Assembly: GCA_903902745.1 (NCBI GenBank)
Contig: CAIUWA010000013.1
Coordinates: 1-64,000 of the forward strand
Length of the DNA stretch: 64,000 nt
Source: an uncultured Opitutia bacterium
GTDB lineage: Bacteria; Verrucomicrobiota; Verrucomicrobiia; Opitutales; Opitutaceae
Reading direction: 5' to 3'
Position 1 is the first letter of the stretch. Each line of letters begins with the position of its first letter. Under the pieces are notes generated by a model. That model was not told the origin of the DNA, did not search any database, and saw nothing but the letters and a program-made list of their open reading frames with translations. The translations under genes were made by a program, and so were the position numbers. Below, piece after piece: positions 46,844 through 60,814 of the stretch.

Positions 46844-49264
46844 ATGAAGCCCTCCCGCATCCTCCTGGCCCTGTTTTTAATCCTGGCACCCCGCCTGGTC
46901 GCGCAGAAGGCCGAGGAAGGCACGGTGACTGCCGTCGTTTTCGACCAGGCGACGGCCAAGCCGATCGAATACGTCGCGGTCGCGTTGAAGAAAAATCCGG
47001 GAGACCAGACGGTGCGCACGGCTGCGACCGACAGCCGGGGCGCGTTCACCTTGGAGAGCGTTCCGTTCGGCAACTACAAGCTGGTCTACGGGGTCATCGG
47101 CTTCGACAGCCACGAGTCGGCCCCCTTCACCGTCGATGCCACGCACCGTGCGACCGATCTGGGGCGCCTGCTCATCACCGAGGCCGTGGTCAAAATGGAG
47201 AAATTCGAGGTCACCACCCGCACCGAGGCCTTCTACAATTCGATCGACCGCAAGACCTACAACGTGGGCAAGGACATCCAGAGCGCGACCGGCTCGGCCA
47301 GCGACCTGTTGCAGAACCTGCCCTCGGTGCAGGTCGACGTCGAGGGCAACGTCAGCCTGCGGGGCGACGCCAATGTCCTGATCCTGATCAACGGGAAGAC
47401 CTCCACCTTGATGGGGGCGAACCGCGCGGCGGTGCTGGAGCAGATGCCGGCCGACGCGATCGAGAAGATCGAGGTGATCACCAACCCGTCGGCCAAGTAC
47501 AAGCCGGACGGCACCGCCGGGATCATCAACCTCACGCTGAAGAAAAAGCACGATCCGGGTTATTCGGCCTCGATCCGGGCCAGCGTGGGCAATGACCGGC
47601 GCTACAACACGGGCGTTTCCGCCAACTACAATCCCGGCAAGTACAATATTTTTGGCAGCTTCAACGTCCGGCAGGACGACCGCGTGCGCCGGTCCGAGGA
47701 GCACCGCCGGCACCTGGATACCGCGACCAACACCTTCCTCGGCACGGAGCAGAGCAGCACGGAGAACGCCCGGCCGCTTTCCCGCATCGCCCAGGCGGGC
47801 GTGGACTACAGTCCCGACGAGGAGAACAAGCTCGGCGCCTCCGTCAGCTACAACCGCCGCACGTTTTTCCGCACCGCCGACCAGCGGAACCGCTCGCTCG
47901 ATGCCACGGGGGCCGTGACCAGCGACTACGACCGGTTGCGCACCGACCCGGAATACCAGACGGACCTGGAATTCAAGGCGAGCTACGAGCATTCCTTTGC
48001 AGAGGAGGGACGCGAACTCAGCATCGAGTTGAAGAACAGCGACTCGAAGGAGCAGGAGGACAACCACTACGCGAATGTGTACCGCACGCCGGCGGTCCCG
48101 ACCACGTTCGACCACACGCGGATCGCGCCGCATGAGATCAACCGGGAGGCGTCCGCCGATTACACGCACCCCTTTGCCAACGACGGCAAGCTGGAGACCG
48201 GCTATGCGCTGGAGGCCAGCCGGATCGACACGGATCACTTCGGCAGTTCCCTCGATCCCCTGAGCGGCCTCTTCGTGACCGACCCGGTGGTCACCAACCG
48301 CTTTGTCTACGATTCAAAGATCCACGCGTTTTACGCCACCTACGGCCGGCCAGTGGGCGAGTTCGGGTTCCTCGCCGGCCTGCGCACGGAGGAGGCGATC
48401 ATCGACACGAACCAGGTGACGGCACGGCTCACGGACCACAACAGCTACCTCCGCGCGTATCCCAGCCTGCACCTGTCCTACAACCTGAAGGAGAGCCAGC
48501 AACTGCAGTTGAACTACAGTCACCGCATCCACCGGCCGGAGGGCGACGACCTGAACCCGTATCCCGAATACCAAGATCCCTTCAACCTGCGGGCCGGCAA
48601 TCCGCACCTCCTCCCCGAGGAGATTCACTCGATCGAGGCCGGGTACCAGTACAAGAAGGATGCGGCCAGCTACCTCGCGACCCTCTACTACCGCTACCAG
48701 TACCACGGGCTCACGGATGTCACCCGCTACATCAACAGCACGACACTGCTGACGACGAAGGAAAACCTTTCCAAGAGTTCATCCGGCGGCCTGGAACTCG
48801 CGGCGACCACCGACGTGGGCAGCAAGGTCTCGCTCAACTTCAGCTCCAACGTTTATTACAACGTGATCGACGCGAGCAACCTGGGCTTCAGCGCCAATCG
48901 CCGGACGCTGGCCTGGAATGCCAAGCTGAACACCAACCTTCACGTCTCGAAAACCACGCTGGTCCAGTTCAACACAAACTACTCCGCCAAGCGGCTTACC
49001 GCGCAGGGCTATCGGCTGCCGACCTTTGTGGCCAACATCGGCCTGAAGCATGACCTGGCGGACAAGAAGACATCCCTGATCTTCACGCTCTCGGACATCT
49101 TTGACTCAATGCGGGAAAAAACGCTCATCGACACCCCCATTCTCCACGACGAGATCACGCGCCAGCGGAGCGCCCGGATTGCCTACATCGGGGTCATCTA
49201 CAATTTCGGGAAGGCGAAGAAAAAGGGCAAGGACGACACCCTGCCATTCGACAACCAGCCGTGA
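46844..49264 (+). CDS. TonB-dependent outer-membrane receptor (OMP_b-brl_3-like)
   Basis: 806 residues with a signal peptide (RILLALFLILAPRLVA). A carboxypeptidase-regulatory-like domain covers about 24-105 (GTVTAVVFDQATAKPIEYVA). The plug domain follows (about 115-225) with SASDLLQNLPSVQVDVEGNV, LRGDANVLILINGKTS and IEKIEVITNPSAKYKPDGTA, then GIINLTLKKK. The rest is a 22-strand-type barrel with outer-membrane-3-like repeats. No classical TonB-box was pinned down. Encoded right after PepSY, it probably imports a metal chelate or another large ligand. The C-terminus (TLPFDNQP) is not aromatic. Confidence 0.9.
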   Translation: MKPSRILLALFLILAPRLVAQKAEEGTVTAVVFDQATAKPIEYVAVALKKNPGDQTVRTAATDSRGAFTLESVPFGNYKLVYGVIGFDSHESAPFTVDATHRATDLGRLLITEAVVKMEKFEVTTRTEAFYNSIDRKTYNVGKDIQSATGSASDLLQNLPSVQVDVEGNVSLRGDANVLILINGKTSTLMGANRAAVLEQMPADAIEKIEVITNPSAKYKPDGTAGIINLTLKKKHDPGYSASIRASVGNDRRYNTGVSANYNPGKYNIFGSFNVRQDDRVRRSEEHRRHLDTATNTFLGTEQSSTENARPLSRIAQAGVDYSPDEENKLGASVSYNRRTFFRTADQRNRSLDATGAVTSDYDRLRTDPEYQTDLEFKASYEHSFAEEGRELSIELKNSDSKEQEDNHYANVYRTPAVPTTFDHTRIAPHEINREASADYTHPFANDGKLETGYALEASRIDTDHFGSSLDPLSGLFVTDPVVTNRFVYDSKIHAFYATYGRPVGEFGFLAGLRTEEAIIDTNQVTARLTDHNSYLRAYPSLHLSYNLKESQQLQLNYSHRIHRPEGDDLNPYPEYQDPFNLRAGNPHLLPEEIHSIEAGYQYKKDAASYLATLYYRYQYHGLTDVTRYINSTTLLTTKENLSKSSSGGLELAATTDVGSKVSLNFSSNVYYNVIDASNLGFSANRRTLAWNAKLNTNLHVSKTTLVQFNTNYSAKRLTAQGYRLPTFVANIGLKHDLADKKTSLIFTLSDIFDSMREKTLIDTPILHDEITRQRSARIAYIGVIYNFGKAKKKGKDDTLPFDNQP

Positions 49265-52379: not shown

Positions 52380-52480
52380 CGGTTTGAAAGGGCTATTTTA
52401 TGAAACAAACCGTCCCGGTTTTCATCTGACAAGAAGGCTTGCGGATAAGTCCCATCTCCCGAGCCTGATTGCCCCATCCC

Positions 52481-53791
52481 ATGTTTGGATTTTTCGAATC
52501 ACCGGAGAAAAAGATGCGCGAGAACGCCGCGCGCTGGCTCGAGCAGGCGGCGAAGGTCTGGCATTTCCGCCGTGATGTCCTTGGGGTGGAGCAGGAGCGG
52601 GAGCTCAACCGTCGCCGCGAGGAGCTCGCCGCGCTGGTGAAGAACCGGGCCGGCGTGGGCGAACTCAAGTCTTCCATCGAGTCCCTGGAAGGCGTGCTGC
52701 GGAAGACGGGCGGGGCGCTGTACCCGATGAGCGGGCTGAAGGAGAACGTCGAGTTCTTCCTGGTCGCGGCGATCGTAATCCTCGGCGTCCGGACTTATTT
52801 CCTCAAGCCGATGGTGATCCCGACGAATTCGATGTGGCCGACCTACTACGGGCTGACCGCGGAAAACTTTCCGCCCGGCACCGCGGCCCCGGGCTGGGGT
52901 GAACGCCTGTTCCGCCTCGCCGGGTTCGGGGCGGTGCGCAAGGAGGTCGTCGCCCCGAAGGACGGCGAGGTCTCGGCCCTGTTCACGGTGAGCCCGGGAG
53001 GCCAGCCGCATCCGTTCGCGGCCCGGGTCGACGGGACGTCGTGGCTGGTGTTTCCGGCGAAGCTGAACGAGTACACCTTTTTCGTGGACGACGAACCGGT
53101 GAAAATCCGGTTGAACGAGGACTTCCATGATTACGACGAGGTTTTCATGGAGACTTATTTCTCCGACCCGGCCGCGCTGGTCGCCCAGATCAAGCGGGCG
53201 CAGGCGCAGGGGTTGATCAGGGAGGTAACCGTGGGCAGCGGCTCGCAGGCTTACCGCGCCTACCGGATTCCGCTCGGACGGACCGTCAAGGCGGGCGATC
53301 CGCTGCTGCGGTTCGACCTGATGAAGGGGGACATGCTGGTCGTCGACTGTGTCAGCTGGCATTTTGTCCGCCCGAAGGTCGGATCGGGCTTCGTGTTTGA
53401 GACCGGGAAAATCCCCAACCTCGTGCTCGAGGGCTTTGGCGACCAGTATTTCATCAAGCGGCTGGCGGGCGTGCCGGGCGACAAGATCGAAATCAAGGAG
53501 CCGGCGATTTACCGCAATGGAAAGCCCATCGAGGGGGCGGCGGCCTTTGAAGCCAATGCACGCCGCGAGGGCAAATACCGGGGCTACTTCAACAATCCAT
53601 TAGGCAACGCGCAGAATCTTCTCCCCGGGGCGACCCTGACCGTCCCGCCCCGTTCGTTCCTCGCGCTGGGTGACAATTCCCTCATCAGCGAGGACGGCCG
53701 CTACTGGGGTTTCGTCCCCGAGAAGGAAGTCCTCGGCCGTCCGCTCTTCATCTATTACCCTTTCACCCGCCGCTGGGGTCCGGCGAAGTAA
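52481..53791 (+). CDS. lepB: Signal peptidase I (enlarged form)
   Basis: 436 residues from ATG 52481. A ~85-residue cytoplasmic N-terminal region with coiled-coil character (EQERELNRRREELAALVKNR) precedes one membrane helix (NVEFFLVAAIVILGVRTYFL). The catalytic dyad is Ser117 in IPTNSMWPT and Lys326 in YFIKRLAGVPGD; ALGDNS (box E) is near the end. About 200 residues separate Ser and Lys, against ~55 in E. coli LepB, including segments such as KDGEVSALFTVSPGG. It removes signal peptides from exported proteins. The gene appears to be monocistronic. Confidence 0.92.
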   Translation: MFGFFESPEKKMRENAARWLEQAAKVWHFRRDVLGVEQERELNRRREELAALVKNRAGVGELKSSIESLEGVLRKTGGALYPMSGLKENVEFFLVAAIVILGVRTYFLKPMVIPTNSMWPTYYGLTAENFPPGTAAPGWGERLFRLAGFGAVRKEVVAPKDGEVSALFTVSPGGQPHPFAARVDGTSWLVFPAKLNEYTFFVDDEPVKIRLNEDFHDYDEVFMETYFSDPAALVAQIKRAQAQGLIREVTVGSGSQAYRAYRIPLGRTVKAGDPLLRFDLMKGDMLVVDCVSWHFVRPKVGSGFVFETGKIPNLVLEGFGDQYFIKRLAGVPGDKIEIKEPAIYRNGKPIEGAAAFEANARREGKYRGYFNNPLGNAQNLLPGATLTVPPRSFLALGDNSLISEDGRYWGFVPEKEVLGRPLFIYYPFTRRWGPAK

Positions 53792-53947: not shown

Positions 53948-54103
53948 CCGAATGGATGGCCCGGCCGCCTGTCCGTATCTTCGGTGCATGCGTACGCGCC
54001 GATTTTTCTGAAAGAACTGGGCGGATCCCAGCGTTATTAATGCGTTGGCTCCCATGCCAGCCATGCACGACGCATGGCGCAGGGCAGGGAGCCCGCGATC
54101 ACC

Positions 54104-56116
54104 ATGACGTCACTCCAAATCAACCCATGCCCGGTTGCTGAGCCCCTCCTGCATCCCCGTAGCAAACGAGGTAACGAGGCTGTCCTCCCAGCCCCAGCCT
54201 CCTTACGTCAGCTGCTACGCCGGACGGCGTGCAGGCTCGCGACGGTTCTGATTCTGGCGGCTGCTCCCTCCCACGCACCCGCGCAATCCACGGCCACGCC
54301 CCCGGCTTTACCGGGCAACGTCAGCCACCTCACTCACGCAGAGGCCCAATCGCGCCTCGAAAAGCTGCGCTCCGAGATCGCCCACCACGACGCACTCTAC
54401 TTCAAAAACTCCGCCCCGGAAATCAGTGATTTTGCCTATGATCAGCTCAAGCGCGAGTTGGCAGCATTGGAGCAGGCGTTTCCGGATCTTGTAGGCGGAC
54501 CATCGACCTCCGACAGCCTGGGCGATGACCGCACGGGGCTTTTCCCTGTCTACCGTCACCGCGAGCGGATGCTGGGTCTCGATAAAACCTATGCCGAGGC
54601 CGACGTCCGCGCGTTTCATGCCCGGCTCGTCAAACGGCTGGGCCGCGACGATTTGCTTTTTGTGGTCGAGCCCAAGGTGGACGGGCTTGCGGTCAGTATC
54701 ACCTATGAAAAGGGGAAATTGGTCCGCGCCGTCACCCGGGGCAACGGACTCGAAGGCGATGACATCACGACCAACGCCCTCCGGCTCCGCAATCTGCCGC
54801 AGCAGTTGCAGTCGGATCCGTCCCTTCCGCCGCCTGACTCGATTGAACTGCGGGGGGAGATTTACGTGCCGCTCGCTGAATTCCGGCGGGTAAATGACGA
54901 GCGCGAGGCGGCCGGTGAAACTCCTTTCGCCAATCCCCGCAACCTTGCGGCGGGTACGATCCGGCAGACCAATCCGGCGGAGATCGTCGAACGGGGGCTT
55001 GAGGTTATTTTCTATGGATCCGCGGCGTGTGAACCGGCATCAGCCGCACCGGCCACGCAGCGTGAGCTGCACCAGAGGATGCGTGTGTGGGGCCTGCCGG
55101 TTTTTGAAAAATATTGGACGGCCCGGAGTGCAGCGGAAATGTGGACCGCGGTGCAGGCGGTCGGCCGCGAGCGGGCGCGCCTCGCCTTCCCGACGGACGG
55201 TGCCGTGGTGAAGCTCGACCCGGTGGCGCTGCAGCGCGAACTCGGTGCCAGTGAGACGACCCCGCGCTGGGCGGTGGCCTATAAGTTTGCGCCGGACCGT
55301 GCCGAGACGCAGCTGCGGGCCATCACCGTGCAGGTCGGCCGCACCGGCCTGCTCACGCCGGTGGCGGAACTCGCGCCCGTGACCCTGGCCGGCACGACCA
55401 TCGCGCGTGCCACGCTGCACAATGCGGCGGACATCGCTCGTCACGATTTTCGCGTGGGTGATTATGTCTATGTCGAGAAGGCGGGGGAGATCATCCCGGC
55501 CATCGTGGGCGTGAACCTCACGCGACGGACCTCCGCCATTCAGCCGTACGTTTTCCCTTCGGCCTGTCCGGTCTGTGGTACGGCCATCGTCCCGGATGGC
55601 GATGTGATCGCGCATCACTGTCCGAATGCTGGGTGCCCTGCCCAGGTGCGCGGGCGCCTGGAGCATTTCGCCTCGAAATCATGCGTGGATATCGCCGGGT
55701 TTGGCCCGGCGTTGATCGATGCGCTGGTGACCAAGGGGAGAGTGAGGACGATTGCGGACATTTATCGTTTGCACGCGGATGATCTCGTCTCGTCGGGCCG
55801 GACGGCTGGCAACTCTACGGACCGCCTGCTGGAGGCGATCGCGGCCAGCAAGCGCGCCGAGCTGTGGCGTTTCATCAACGGGCTCGGCATCCCGCGAGTA
55901 GGCGAGGCGTCGGCGAAGGTACTCGCCCGCCGCTTCGGCAGCCTCGCCGCGCTGGCCGCGGCCCAGCCCGGCAACCTTGTCGCCGGCGGCGAGAGCGTGA
56001 TCCCCGGCTTCGGCGCGGCGACAGCCCTCTCCGTCCGTGACTGCCTCGCCGAGCCGAGAAACCGTGCCCTCCTCGCGGAGCTGCAAGCGGCTGAAGTGAA
56101 CCCGGTCGAGAAATAA
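54104..56116 (+). CDS. ligA: NAD-dependent DNA ligase with putative signal peptide and no BRCT domain
   Basis: 670 residues from ATG 54104 (ATG 54074 would add ten). The catalytic core is complete: domain Ia HHDALYFKNSAPEISDFAYD; adenylation Lys191 in VVEPKVDGLAVSI; RGEIYVP; NPRNLAAGTIRQ; TDGAVVKLD; RWAVAYKF; OB-fold QVGRTGLLTPVAEL and YVEKAGEIIPA; a four-Cys zinc finger (CPVCG...HHCPNAGCPAQ); and helix-hairpin-helix motifs. Two features are odd. Before domain Ia lies a basic-hydrophobic signal-like segment (RRTACRLATVLILAAAPSHA, cleavage plausible after APA, about residue 60). The protein ends right after the HhH region (EVNPVEK) without a BRCT domain. It may be an exported paralogue of the housekeeping ligase. 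Confidence 0.88.
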   Translation: MTSLQINPCPVAEPLLHPRSKRGNEAVLPAPASLRQLLRRTACRLATVLILAAAPSHAPAQSTATPPALPGNVSHLTHAEAQSRLEKLRSEIAHHDALYFKNSAPEISDFAYDQLKRELAALEQAFPDLVGGPSTSDSLGDDRTGLFPVYRHRERMLGLDKTYAEADVRAFHARLVKRLGRDDLLFVVEPKVDGLAVSITYEKGKLVRAVTRGNGLEGDDITTNALRLRNLPQQLQSDPSLPPPDSIELRGEIYVPLAEFRRVNDEREAAGETPFANPRNLAAGTIRQTNPAEIVERGLEVIFYGSAACEPASAAPATQRELHQRMRVWGLPVFEKYWTARSAAEMWTAVQAVGRERARLAFPTDGAVVKLDPVALQRELGASETTPRWAVAYKFAPDRAETQLRAITVQVGRTGLLTPVAELAPVTLAGTTIARATLHNAADIARHDFRVGDYVYVEKAGEIIPAIVGVNLTRRTSAIQPYVFPSACPVCGTAIVPDGDVIAHHCPNAGCPAQVRGRLEHFASKSCVDIAGFGPALIDALVTKGRVRTIADIYRLHADDLVSSGRTAGNSTDRLLEAIAASKRAELWRFINGLGIPRVGEASAKVLARRFGSLAALAAAQPGNLVAGGESVIPGFGAATALSVRDCLAEPRNRALLAELQAAEVNPVEK

Positions 56117-56216: not shown

Positions 56217-56276
56217 GTGAAGCCGTATTTTCTTTGTTCGGTTTTGGGATCGGTGCCGGTATTAAGGTGAAAGACC

Positions 56277-57596
56277 ATGATCGAGGACGCCGAACTGCTC
56301 CGCCGTTATGCCGCCGAACGCTCCGAGGCGGCGTTTGCCGAATTGGTCCAGCGGCATCTCGGCCTGGTGTATTCCGTGGCGCTGCGGCAGGTGGAGCGCG
56401 ATGCGCACCTGGCGGAGGATGTAGCGCAGAAGGTTTTCAGTGACCTTGCGCGCAAGGCCGCGCCGCTCTCGCGGCATCCGGTACTCACCGGCTGGCTGTA
56501 CCGCAGCACACAGTTTACCGCGATCGACGTGATGCGGTCCGAGCGCCGGCGGCGAGCCCGCGAACAGGAGGCCCAAACCATGCATGAACTCACGACCGGC
56601 TCCGGCCCCGCAATGGACGGCGAAAAACTCCGCCCCGTGCTCGACCAGGTGATGGGCGAGCTGAACGACCGCGACCGCGACGCCGTCATGCTCCGTTTCT
56701 TCGAGGGCCGGCCGTTTGCCGAGGTGGGAGCGAAACTTCAGATCACCGAAGATGCCGCCAGGATGCGGGTTGAAAGAACCCTCGATAAAATGCGCACACT
56801 GCTCGGCCGCCGCGGGGTGACCTCGACAACCGCGGCGCTGGCTGCGGCACTCGCGAATCAGGCGGGTGTGGCGGCCCCGGCCGGGCTTGCTGCCATGGTG
56901 ACCGGAGCGGCCGTGACGGGGGCCAAAGCCGGCGGGGGCCTGGGGATGATTTTTATGAGTATGACCAAACTACAAGTTGGGATCGCCAGCGCGCTCGTCC
57001 TAGCGGGCGCAACGGGCATTGTGATGCAAGCAGAGACGAACAACGCGTTGCTGGGTGAAGTGTCCGAGCTCCGCCATGAGAATCAAAAAATGCCGGCTCT
57101 GGAGGCGGACAATCTCCGCCTGGCCAAGACCGCCGCCGAGGTCGCGGAGCTGCGCAAGGATGAGGGTGACGTGGCCCGATTGCGTGACGAGACGGCGCTT
57201 CTGCAAAGCCGGTTGCGAGCGATGGAGGCGGCCAGGATGGCCAGCGGCGGCGAGACCAAGGCCGGCCTTGCGGGCGTCACGATCTACGAAATTTCCAACC
57301 TCGACCGCATTCCGTCAGTGAAGTCGCAGGCCCGGCCGGTCTATCCGGTCGAGCTGAGAAAGGCGGGGGTGGCGGGTGATGTCCTCGTAGAGTTCATCGT
57401 CGACGCCAATGGCGATGTGCGGGACGCCCAAGTCCTCAAGGCCGAACCGCCGGATTTTGCCGAGTCGGCGGTCACGGCGGTAAGCCAGTGGAAATTCCAG
57501 CCGGGCGAAAAGGACGGACAGCCCGTTCATACCCGCATGCGAGTACCGATCAGGTTTACCGTGGATAATAACGAAGCGAAGCGGAGCGATCACTAA
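56277..57596 (+). CDS. ECF sigma factor fused to a membrane helix, coiled coil and TonB C-terminal domain
   Basis: 439 residues in one uninterrupted frame. Residues 1-190 form a sigma-70 family ECF factor: region 2 has AAFAELVQRHLGLVYSVALR, DVAQKVFSDLARKA and LTGWLYRSTQF; region 4 has LNDRDRDAVMLRFFEGRPFA and ARMRVERTLDKMRTLLG. An Ala/Gly-rich linker leads to one membrane helix (about 232-250, LQVGIASALVLAGATGIVMQ). A coiled coil follows (about 252-325, LLGEVSELRHENQKM...), then a TonB C-terminal domain (356-430: YPVELRKAGVAGDVLVEFIV, AVTAVSQWKFQPG). Topology predicts sigma in the cytoplasm and the TonB domain in the periplasm. This suggests a transmembrane sigma factor. The next gene starts 6 bp later. 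Confidence 0.9.
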   Translation: MIEDAELLRRYAAERSEAAFAELVQRHLGLVYSVALRQVERDAHLAEDVAQKVFSDLARKAAPLSRHPVLTGWLYRSTQFTAIDVMRSERRRRAREQEAQTMHELTTGSGPAMDGEKLRPVLDQVMGELNDRDRDAVMLRFFEGRPFAEVGAKLQITEDAARMRVERTLDKMRTLLGRRGVTSTTAALAAALANQAGVAAPAGLAAMVTGAAVTGAKAGGGLGMIFMSMTKLQVGIASALVLAGATGIVMQAETNNALLGEVSELRHENQKMPALEADNLRLAKTAAEVAELRKDEGDVARLRDETALLQSRLRAMEAARMASGGETKAGLAGVTIYEISNLDRIPSVKSQARPVYPVELRKAGVAGDVLVEFIVDANGDVRDAQVLKAEPPDFAESAVTAVSQWKFQPGEKDGQPVHTRMRVPIRFTVDNNEAKRSDH

Positions 57597-57602
57597 ACCC
57601 GC

Positions 57603-58328
57603 ATGGACATGCGCCGTAGTACCCTGCCGACGATGGTGATCACGATGCTGGTGATTGCCGGCGGCATGGTCTTGGCGTGGCAGTACCAAACGGCGTGCCA
57701 GTTGCGCGATGAAATCGGGCTGTTGCGCGGGCAGAACCGCCGACTTCGCCAACTGGAGGACGAACACCGGCGTTTGTCGGCGGCGGAGGTGGCGACCGGC
57801 GAATTGCAGGCCCTGCGTGACGATCATGCCGCGGCCGTCCGACTGCGGGGAGAGGTTGAGGCGTTCAAGGCCCGCGTGGAGGAAATGACCCCGATGGTGG
57901 TTTCGCCGCAACCTGTCGCGCTATTGACGCTCGGCACCTGGAAGAATGCCGGGCGGGCCACACCCGTGGCGGCGGTCGAAACCCTGCTGTGGGCCGTGGC
58001 GGGTGGCGACACTGACACCATGGCGGGAGGGATCGTCCTCGATCCCGCGGCGCGGACGAAAGCCGAGGCGCAGCTCGCACAGTTGCCCGAGGCCATGCGC
58101 CGGGAATATGGCACGGCGGAAAAATTCGCGGCCTTGCTGCTCGCGAGGAGTGCCGCGCCGATCAAGGAAGTGGAAGTGATTTCGCAGACCCCGGTCGATG
58201 CGGACACCACGGCCTTGCAGGTGCGTATGAAGGACGGAGAAGGCAAAACCAAGGAGACCGTCTTCATGTTTCAAAAGAGTACATTCGGTTGGCAGTTGAA
58301 AGTCCCCGCGAACGGATTGAACAAATAG
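57603..58328 (+). CDS. Membrane-anchored coiled-coil protein, partner of the sigma-TonB fusion
   Basis: 241 residues. One membrane helix (about 9-27, LPTMVITMLVIAGGMVLAW) is followed by a coiled coil (about 30-95, LRDEIGLLRGQNRRLRQLED, RRLSAAEVATGELQALRDD). That coiled coil aligns with the one in the upstream sigma-TonB protein. A C-terminal globular region has no known domain (TPVAAVETLLWAVAGGDTDT, KTKETVFMFQKSTFGWQLKV). The topology is N-in, so most of it is periplasmic. It starts 6 bp after the fusion gene stop, so the two are probably co-translated and may interact. Confidence 0.8.
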   Translation: MDMRRSTLPTMVITMLVIAGGMVLAWQYQTACQLRDEIGLLRGQNRRLRQLEDEHRRLSAAEVATGELQALRDDHAAAVRLRGEVEAFKARVEEMTPMVVSPQPVALLTLGTWKNAGRATPVAAVETLLWAVAGGDTDTMAGGIVLDPAARTKAEAQLAQLPEAMRREYGTAEKFAALLLARSAAPIKEVEVISQTPVDADTTALQVRMKDGEGKTKETVFMFQKSTFGWQLKVPANGLNK

Positions 58329-58472: not shown

Positions 58473-59456
58473 ATGAAAACCCGCTGCTTCTGGCTCACCG
58501 GCCTGCTCTTGCTTCCAGTGGTCTTTGCCGCGGACCAGCCGGTCTCGACAGCGGCGCCGAAAAAGCCCGTGAAGCAGGGCGGCGATTTCGTTTTTTCGCT
58601 CCTACCCAAGGCGTTCTCGAAAAATCCGTTTGTGAATATGAGCGTGTTCACCGAGATGACCGAGGAGGGCAAAAAACTTCCGCCGCCTACGCCGGACAGC
58701 CCGGCGTACTACATTGCGCAGTCGGCCGGCTTTCATGCCTTCGGGCCGCCGGTCGCCAGACTGACGCCGCCGACGCAGGAGAGCATCGAGCGGGTGCTGC
58801 GCACCACCCTGGACGGCGAAGGCTACCAGGTGGAGGCGCCGCCGGAGCACGCGGCGACCCTGGTCGTCATTTATAGCTGGGGCCTGCACAGCAAGGTTGA
58901 GCCGCTTGGTGACGAGGAGAATGGCGAGTCCACTTACAACGCCAATGCGGGGATCAAGAACCTGTATGAGCGGGCGGCCCTGATCGGCGGCGAAAAATAC
59001 GCCCAGAAACTGGTGGAGGCGAATATGACGGCGATCACGCAGTCCGCCGACCTCGACGATGCCCTGGCGAACAGCGGCCGGGTCGGCAGCCCGATTCTCA
59101 CGCCCGAAGCCATGGCGTTTTTCAAGAAAATGAACCCGGTGCAGCAGCTGTACGACAGCAGCCCCAATATGGCCGAGCTCATGGAGCAGACCAACGAGGA
59201 CGTCTATTTCGTCGTGGCTTCGGCCTATGATTACCAGGCGATGGGAAAAAACCGGCGAATCCTGCTCTGGCGTACGAAGATGACGGTGGACACCAAGGGA
59301 GTCTCCATGACCGACACGTTGCCCGCGGTGATCGTGGCCGCCGGGCCCTATTTTGGCCGTGAGACGGAGGAGGCCACGGTCCTGACCAAGCGGGTGGTGC
59401 GGCAGGGGAAGGTCGACGTGGGCACGCCGACGGTGGTGGAGCCGGTGAAGAAATAG
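58473..59456 (+). CDS. Exported protein of unknown function
   Basis: 327 residues with a signal peptide (FWLTGLLLLPVVFAADQ). I recognise no family. Visible blocks are SPAYYIAQSAGFHAFGPPVA, TQESIERVLRTTLDGEGYQV, AATLVVIYSWGLHSK, YFVVASAYDYQAMGKNRRIL and LWRTKMTVDTKGVSMTDTLP. The pattern of VV-Y-W followed by LLWRTKM is reminiscent of envelope lipoproteins of the DUF4136 type, but the lipobox is absent. It lies 144 bp downstream of the membrane coiled-coil gene on the same strand, possibly in the same envelope-related group. Confidence 0.78.
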   Translation: MKTRCFWLTGLLLLPVVFAADQPVSTAAPKKPVKQGGDFVFSLLPKAFSKNPFVNMSVFTEMTEEGKKLPPPTPDSPAYYIAQSAGFHAFGPPVARLTPPTQESIERVLRTTLDGEGYQVEAPPEHAATLVVIYSWGLHSKVEPLGDEENGESTYNANAGIKNLYERAALIGGEKYAQKLVEANMTAITQSADLDDALANSGRVGSPILTPEAMAFFKKMNPVQQLYDSSPNMAELMEQTNEDVYFVVASAYDYQAMGKNRRILLWRTKMTVDTKGVSMTDTLPAVIVAAGPYFGRETEEATVLTKRVVRQGKVDVGTPTVVEPVKK

Positions 59457-59818: not shown

Positions 59819-60814
59819 TCAGAAGTCGAACTGGTCGATGTTGCCCTTGTTGAAGATGTAGGGCTTCCCGAGGAGGATGTTGTCACCCTTGATTTCGAAG
59901 GTGCCGAGCGTGCCGGCCTTGAAGCTCGCGGCGCCGGGCTTGAGCTCGTTCTTCGCGACGGAGACGCCGGCGTAGATGCTGAGGTAGCCGAGATCCATCG
60001 TGTTCCAGAGGATGACGCTGTCGGTCACGCCATCATGGACGTAGCGCTTGTTCTCGTTGGGCAGGCCCAGGCCGATGACCTTCACCTTGCCGGTCTTGCC
60101 GGCCTGCTTCACAGCCTCGGCCGCACCGGGGACGCCGGGCGAGCAGATGGCCATGATGAGCTTCAGGTTCGGGTTGGCGCTCATCATCGCCGTGGCCTCG
60201 GACTGGGCCTTGTCCTTCATGTCGTCGCACGGGCGGGTGATCGCGAGTTTCATTTTCGGATACTTTGCGGCGAGGCGGGCCTGAATGTGCTTCATCCACT
60301 CCTGTTGGTTGGAGGCGGTCAGGCTGGCCGTGATGATGGCGAATTCACCCTCGTTGTTCATCAGGCGGGCGGCCTCGTCCATGAGCGAGTAGCCAATGCC
60401 CTCGGGCGTGGCCTGGTTGACGAAATACGAGCGGGAATCAGGCAGCGCGTCGGCGTCGTAGGTGACGACCTTGATGCCCTGCTTCTGGGCCTTGCGGAGG
60501 GCGGTGGAGATGCCCTCCTTGTTTTCACAGGCGGCGACGATCACGTCGACGCCGAGGGTGATCCAGTTCTCGACGATTTCGTTCTGCTTGGCGGCGTTGG
60601 AGTCGGTCGGGCCGTCGAACAACAGCTCGACGCCGAGCTCCTTGGCGGCCTTTTCGGCGCCGGCCTTGCAGGAGATGAAGTAAGCGTTGCCCTTGGCCTT
60701 GGGCAACATGGCGACCACGAGCTTCTGGTTCGCGGCCGCGGCGGAGGCGACGGGCGCCAAGGAGGTCAGTAACAGGCCGAGTGCGAGGAGCAGACGGAGG
60801 GGGAGGGATTTCAT
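59819..60814 (-). CDS. Sugar/AI-2-type ABC transporter substrate-binding protein
   Basis: 331 residues with a signal peptide (LRLLLALGLLLTSLAPVASA). A periplasmic-binding-protein type I fold is shown by KLVVAMLPKAKGNAYFISCK, DAVIVAAC-like VDVIVAACENKEGISTALRK, VVTYDADALPDSRSYFVNQA and TPEGIGYSLMDEAARLM. The FVNQATPEGIG block is typical of the rhamnose (RhaS)/AI-2 (LsrB) group. The ligand is probably a deoxysugar such as rhamnose, or AI-2. It is the last gene of the ATPase, permease, permease, binding-protein operon, overlapping the permease gene by ATGA and followed by a strong terminator. Confidence 0.9.
   Translation of the reverse strand: MKSLPLRLLLALGLLLTSLAPVASAAAANQKLVVAMLPKAKGNAYFISCKAGAEKAAKELGVELLFDGPTDSNAAKQNEIVENWITLGVDVIVAACENKEGISTALRKAQKQGIKVVTYDADALPDSRSYFVNQATPEGIGYSLMDEAARLMNNEGEFAIITASLTASNQQEWMKHIQARLAAKYPKMKLAITRPCDDMKDKAQSEATAMMSANPNLKLIMAICSPGVPGAAEAVKQAGKTGKVKVIGLGLPNENKRYVHDGVTDSVILWNTMDLGYLSIYAGVSVAKNELKPGAASFKAGTLGTFEIKGDNILLGKPYIFNKGNIDQFDF

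Follow-up and report, generated by a model that had tools for sequence, protein, structure and literature searches.

Cell-surface signalling normally divides its tasks among separate proteins, namely receptor, anti-sigma factor, sigma factor and TonB. In the stretch of Opitutaceae DNA analysed here (64,000 nucleotides, referred to as the window), one open reading frame (ORF) carries both an ECF sigma factor and a TonB C-terminal domain, which raises the question of whether the two are truly parts of one protein and, if so, what such a protein would do. A sigma factor and a TonB-type domain in one chain, together with a partner, would constitute a compact and testable route from the envelope to a promoter.

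Domain Architecture of the Sigma-TonB Fusion

The ORF starts with ATG and runs over 439 aa with no interruption. Its parts are as follows:

56277–57596, + strand: ECF sigma–membrane helix–coil–TonB C-terminal domain, 439 aa (ORF list, Pfam, AlphaFold)
56343–56552, + strand: sigma region 2, residues 23–92 (Pfam Sigma70_r2, 5.4e-9)
56652–56795, + strand: sigma region 4, residues 126–173 (Pfam Sigma70_r4, 3.6e-11)
56826–56927, + strand: Ala/Gly linker, about residues 184–217, kept also in siblings without TonB
56970–57026, + strand: predicted membrane helix, residues 232–250 (hydropathy)
57027–57242, + strand: long helix, coiled coil, to residue 322 (AlphaFold)
57333–57560, + strand: TonB C-terminal domain, residues 353–428 (Pfam TonB_C 1.7e-20, 77/79 positions; Foldseek)

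The NCBIfam models sigma70-ECF and tonB_Cterm both match the fusion above their cut-offs. Structure prediction, which the first-pass annotation had proposed as a check, was done with an AlphaFold input of eight rows (four full fusions and four sibling heads). The model displays the helices of sigma2 and sigma4, a long helix at residues 247–322, corresponding to a coil of ~75 residues, and a TonB part at residues 336–428. The sigma2, sigma4 and TonB parts are confident (mean pLDDT 70.1 overall), and residues 194–255, where the membrane helix and the greater part of the linker lie, are poorly modelled, with pLDDT below 50. Foldseek searches with this model retrieved ECF sigma factors (9m9e_F, 3.0e-6) as well as TonB C-terminal domains (CTDs; 6i97_D, TM 0.86 on target, 1.8 Å over 90 columns). 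The TonB fold is complete and, upon structure comparison, near to CTDs solved with FoxA, BtuB and FhuA. Pfam, NCBIfam, AlphaFold and Foldseek agree that a sigma factor and a TonB-type domain are joined in a single polypeptide, as had been claimed.

The sigma part has regions 2 and 4 only, as is characteristic of ECF sigma factors, according to the same four approaches, and the sigma part, a predicted membrane segment and a predicted periplasmic part lie in one chain, making the protein a fused membrane ECF. Beyond the sigma regions, Pfam gives TonB_C alone above cut-off; a CSS anti-sigma domain is absent. The architecture thus stands as first described, while the sibling family, the partner gene, the C-terminal -WF tail and the promoter-like element treated below had been overlooked.

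Conservation of the Fusion among Relatives

Altogether, 53 fused ORFs were collected from 47 genomes of one family, the Opitutaceae (own genome included). These were picked by their match to the window protein and are, hence, not a sample of all fusions. Scoring the best six candidates per genome at E 1e-72, and leaving out G001:C158 (no TonB match), we obtained 52 stop-free matches reaching from query residue ≤15 to ≥380 in 46/252 family genomes (own included), five of which are single-contig genomes (G005, G006, G015, G021, G252). In nine of these 52 fusions, the alignment stops at 386–396, within the TonB domain; some have an insert in this domain by eye, and one runs off its contig. The 53rd fused ORF, L051 (G029), has a disturbed sigma part. 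The matches without internal stop rule out an assembly or frameshift artefact joining two genes, the probability of which we consider negligible, even though two relatives look disturbed (L051, L044; nothing of the kind was found for the window gene). Both objections raised against the fusion at the outset, namely a hidden stop/start between the sigma and TonB parts and relatives always encoding separate proteins, are thereby removed.

Near-whole-length matches occur in several other genera (57 genomes searched as relatives). Across Verrucomicrobiota, where a search for the same domain order had been suggested, whole-length matches were limited to Opitutaceae among 387 genomes of the phylum (best four candidates per genome, E 1e-40), a scan which more distant fusions could escape. 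Six short peptide patterns scanned over genome contigs, with the same possibility of escape, yielded three matches, in Opitutae/Opitutaceae.

The Partner Gene

The fusion is one half of a conserved pair. Its gene is directly followed by a second gene on the same strand:

57603–58328, + strand: partner gene, 241 aa, with short N-terminus, membrane helix, coil and NTF2-like domain; begins 6 nt past the sigma-TonB stop
57921–58307, + strand: NTF2-like domain of the partner, residues 107–235 (structure model/comparison)

The N-terminus of the partner is short and charged and has no sigma part. Structure comparison returns an NTF2 fold (best 3k7c_A, E 8.0e-5, TM 0.60 on target); Pfam DUF4878 stays below cut-off. 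Between −40 and +80 nt from the stop, 47/52 fusions versus 7/24 siblings have the start of an ORF whose N-terminus carries a membrane helix; this count omits L134 and L041:19319, where a contig end truncates the ORF, as well as three short sigma matches. Four of the remaining five fusions have a partner by homology (L043, at 308 nt distance, L051, L125 and L151), leaving L044 as the sole exception among the 52, where neither the helix test nor homology revealed a downstream partner. The NTF2-like domain is less constant than the gene itself: it was not found downstream of 11/50 scorable fusions, comprising nine with coil-only partners of 95–111 residues, one with a partner of 196 residues, and L044.

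An HMM of the first 100 residues of the partners matches the membrane-coil segment of 49/53 fusions, 7/25 siblings and 0/53 reversed controls. This similarity supports the pairing of fusion and partner, for which a heteromeric periplasmic coil would be the simplest reading. Likewise, the simplest reading of the partner's origin would be loss of the head from a sigma-bearing relative.

The C-Terminal -WF Tail

A further trait of the family, which the window protein does not share, is a terminal Trp-Phe (-WF-COOH) in 34/53 fusions, preceded by Asp, Asn or Glu in 17/34. This end is rare elsewhere: among 3383 mechanically called ORFs of ≥100 aa from the fetched stretches plus the window, 36 end in -WF, of which 34 are fusions, and it occurs in 0/7 TonB ORFs without sigma and 0/28 sigma ORFs without TonB (one cut by a contig end).

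The tail was scored against the downstream NTF2-like domain in 50 fusions (L134 as well as the contig-edge cases L117, which ends in WF, and L123:397 were left out). Both are present in 33, the tail alone in none, the domain alone in six, including the window locus, and neither in 11. The association in raw counts (Fisher 3.3e-7) is inflated because the rows are related; on four well-supported tree pairs (48 fusions; L044 and L051 excluded), on average 3.2 agree, none disagree and 0.8 show no difference, which is not significant (p 0.125–1, median 0.25). Retained as a lead, the pattern suggests that -WF may either dock on the NTF2-like domain of the partner or serve as a protease handle that the partner would cover.

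Siblings with Differing C-Terminal Modules

The fusion belongs to a larger family. Many matches to the window protein span residues 1 to about 220–330 alone, mostly within frames of 400–800 residues, and there are up to 35 matches per genome, TonB-only matches included. Common to fusions and siblings are the sigma head, the linker (STTAALAAALANQ...APAGLAA.VTG) and the start of the helix (FMS.TK), and it is the C-terminal ends that differ. The C-terminal modules of six scanned siblings gave no Pfam match above cut-off; some sibling C-terminal domains may be Spy/CpxP-like. TonB is one module among several that a membrane sigma platform carries at its C-terminus and no isolated oddity. With differing outer modules and siblings often in tandem, such a platform is a candidate for wiring many inputs. 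Sibling arrays include ten matches within G024:C102:39702–77970 and five in G052:C1; the former (L040 and L041) contains ten membrane sigma matches with varied C-terminal modules over about 38 kb.

A tree of 108 sigma heads, including 51/53 fusions (L051 and L130 were too short), requires 18 changes of the TonB label, at least four of them on well-supported branches. Hence, either heads were swapped between outer modules, or the module has been repeatedly lost and gained; a single origin of the fused TonB domains is not rejected (p-AU 0.263, few columns).

At L079:4986–10392 (+ strand), two sigma siblings are each followed by a sigma-less membrane-coil protein with a similar C-terminal module by eye, so that pairing with a sigma-less partner may extend beyond the TonB fusions. 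In the own genome, a sibling sigma gene (L152; G000:C49:9181–9891) contains an in-frame TAG and is possibly a decayed copy. At L052:12282–13682 (+ strand), four TonB_C-like matches lie in one frame, adjoining other TonB_C ORFs.

The Promoter-Like Element

Upstream of the fusion gene, a further shared feature is found:

56234–56262, + strand: promoter-like element TTGTTCGGTTT-N5-TCGGTGCCGGTAT; ends 14 nt before the ATG, with related elements before most family genes

Its general form, TTGT-K-CGGTTT ... GG.G...GCTA, stands shortly 5' of the ATG, whether or not the gene encodes a TonB domain. The core, picked by eye after seeing the data, matches at ≥9/11 positions in 53/76 upstreams versus 3.3% of shuffles (76/81 upstreams were scored, without L046, L051 twice, L152 and L130; a later comparison kept 70/76). 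A strict pattern drawn from the same genes has five matches in seven other whole genomes, all directly before sigma genes of the family that are among those from which the pattern was drawn, and the reversed-pattern control has none; there is no match in 4/7 of these genomes nor in the own genome. There, the window-type pattern with ≤3 mismatches has two matches, which precede the window gene and the sibling C12:8492.

Autoregulation is the usual reading for ECF genes. The variable base of the element follows the sigma tree, with 11 changes versus a shuffled mean of 22 (minimum 18 of 300), which would also be expected from joint inheritance of a gene and its upstream DNA. The element also fits a sigma70-like promoter (TTGTGC-N18-TGCTAT), and a housekeeping promoter with similar spacing may explain it. 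The shared element before family genes makes the outputs searchable. An inverted repeat GGCGG...CCGCC before the ATG, seen by eye, was discarded, its stems being no longer than those of shuffles; it is absent from the window.

Predicted Membrane Topology

The membrane helix of the window protein (residues 232–250) has a Kyte-Doolittle hydropathy of 1.89, with a net charge of +2 before and −3 after it. Among 52 fusions (L051 left out), net charge is higher before than after the helix in 39, and the helix reaches a hydropathy of 1.6 in 45. The Ala/Gly linker also reaches 1.6 in 32/52 (1.5 in the window protein), so that a second span is possible in some members, which would place the TonB domain in the cytoplasm. 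The single N-terminal helix-coil of the partner resembles that of the fusion, which argues for an N-in/C-out topology and against a second span. We infer N-in/C-out, with the sigma head probably cytoplasmic and the TonB domain beyond the inner membrane.

Proposed Mechanism

Our preferred reading, which we hold tentatively and at slightly less than even probability, is that the fusion acts as a transenvelope sigma receptor made in one piece and served by a partner of its own, and that proteolysis releases the sigma factor, which switches on its own operon. The sigma head would face the cytoplasm, held at the inner membrane, and the similar coils of fusion and partner would pair in the periplasm. 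The TonB domain would read the periplasmic or outer-membrane state, most likely that of a TonB-dependent receptor; the -WF tail, where present and perhaps docked on the NTF2-like domain of the partner, would take part in this reading. By analogy, TonB domain and partner might hold the C-terminal part protected until a change at the outer membrane exposes it. Upon such a change, the periplasmic part would be trimmed and a site-2 (M50) protease would cut the membrane helix, as in IutY, freeing the sigma head to transcribe, first of all, its own operon through the element in front.

For the sigma/anti-sigma fusion IutY of Pseudomonas putida, PMC5411451 describes cleavage by Prc and RseP, with Prc trimming the periplasmic part to about 50 residues and thereby creating the RseP substrate. 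A receptor that shields the anti-sigma factor from proteolysis has been reported for the Fox system (PMC11637429). The own genome encodes M50 and S41 proteases; both kinds are present in most control genomes too and, therefore, lend weak support to proteolytic release.

The sigma head might instead work at the membrane unreleased, a shape change passing through helix and coil to free sigma2/sigma4. Such tethered action would suit the Ala/Gly linker, which is kept in siblings with and without TonB and might act as a leash or as a self-inhibiting hairpin, and a planctomycete proteome includes ECF sigma factors in Triton- and SDS-soluble fractions (PMC8567305). However, proteolysis is what releases IutY, the closest fused ECF to have been tested (PMC5411451), and we regard action without release as rather unlikely.

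Also unlikely in our estimation is that the TonB domain binds a ligand other than a TonB box (peptidoglycan, a lipoprotein or the partner) and senses the state of the cell wall or envelope. TonB_C does occur in further contexts, i.e., four times in the L052 frame and in a 1082-aa frame of the own genome, and in siblings the platform bears other C-terminal modules; the preferred reading differs in taking a TonB-dependent receptor as the most likely object of sensing.

The receptor reading may be widened to a plug-in class of paired sigma-bearing and sigma-less coil proteins with exchangeable periplasmic modules, in which the TonB module would tap TonB-dependent receptors, an NTF2-docked -WF would keep the C-terminus out of reach of C-terminal proteases until freed by a signal, and the sigma factor thereby released would fire its own operon. 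Taken as a whole, this wider scheme is improbable.

Sensor or Energiser

The coiled coil had been noted as standing in place of the Pro-rich span of ordinary TonB, and the comparison bears this out: the long Pro-rich TonB spacer is missing from 52 fusions, whose coil has a median of 1% proline (maximum 15%) versus 18–24% in the spacers of six standalone TonBs, chosen for their N-terminal anchor. A histidine in the membrane helix of TonB makes the ExbB/D contact. In the best helix, His occurs in 2/52 fusions and 1/23 siblings versus 5/6 of the anchored standalone TonBs; the window helix has none. The sixth of these TonBs, which lacks the helix His, is the own genome's standalone TonB (C34:18327), adjoining two ExbD genes. 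Thus, the missing His in the fusion does not exclude ExbB/D coupling.

It is the membrane helix, being that of siblings without TonB, together with the Pro-poor coil that favours sensing over energising. The earlier proposal that the protein senses rather than energises consequently stands on these two points, while the argument from the anchor histidine is weak. With both points considered, the fusion probably does not act as an energiser. The converse, i.e., a TonB domain that powers or gates an outer-membrane transporter, with a sigma head that only reports the use of this transporter, could draw on the complete TonB fold with its nearness to receptor-bound CTDs and on the His-less TonB beside two ExbD. 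We nevertheless judge it very unlikely, given the shared helix, the scarcity of the histidine compared with anchored TonBs, the Pro-poor coil and a genome that has a separate TonB with ExbD. Plug-domain matches in the own genome number 17, one of them within the window (ORF 46844–49264).

Relation to Known Systems

Extensions for which a regulatory role is predicted are present in no fewer than 26 ECF groups, of which 15 are unstudied (PMC8999054); hence, a sigma factor and a membrane segment in one chain are already known. IutY (ECF243) resembles the fusion in that a single chain holds an ECF sigma head as well as a periplasmic signalling part bound to the membrane; however, its periplasmic part is a CSS anti-sigma domain instead of a TonB CTD, and, in contrast to the partner gene of the fusion, a sigma-less coil partner goes unmentioned in the excerpts of PMC5411451 and PMC8999054. 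ECF52/SCO4117, ECF48 and ECF53 of Actinobacteria likewise combine sigma, a transmembrane region and an extracytoplasmic C-terminal part (PMC5826349 and PMC8999054). In ECF52/SCO4117, a motif also precedes the own gene, as in the fusion family, but there is a zinc finger, a Pro-rich extension and a carbohydrate-binding domain, and the class is described as exclusive to Actinobacteria (PMC5826349). ECF57 and planctomycete ECFs with WD40 extensions are also lineage-expanded with long C-terminal extensions; they differ by WD40-like repeats and a proposed sigma2–sigma4 cysteine link, and the excerpts of PMC8999054 and PMC8567305 make no mention of a TonB domain.

TonB of E. coli and P. aeruginosa shares the C-terminal fold of the fusion and differs in the spacer and N-terminal part. 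In CnrYXH-type metal-sensing systems, two membrane-anchored periplasmic proteins control one ECF sigma factor; this two-membrane-protein control is alike, whereas sigma, anti-sigma and sensor are separate proteins there. For the sigma-TonB fusion, the sigma-less coil partner and the -WF tail, an open-licence literature search, covering its sources in part, returned no description.

Neighbouring Genes

Three neighbours were considered as further conserved parts of the locus and set aside on their recurrence in the fetched stretches. The LigA-like gene at 54074–56116 (+ strand) recurs in L040, L037 and, weakly, L121. It encodes an NAD-dependent DNA ligase-like protein with adenylation, OB and HHH domains and a weak zinc finger, the Pfam list being without BRCT; its N-terminus is signal-peptide-like by eye, and the protein is possibly exported or LigB-like. 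The gene at 58473–59456 (+ strand), probably for an exported protein, has no Pfam (E 0.1) or NCBIfam match; its recurrence is strong in L041 and L121 and weak in L140. The binding-protein gene at 59822 recurs in L037 and L038 only. Further upstream, at 52469–53791 (+ strand), a large protein of 440 aa is signal peptidase I-like by eye.
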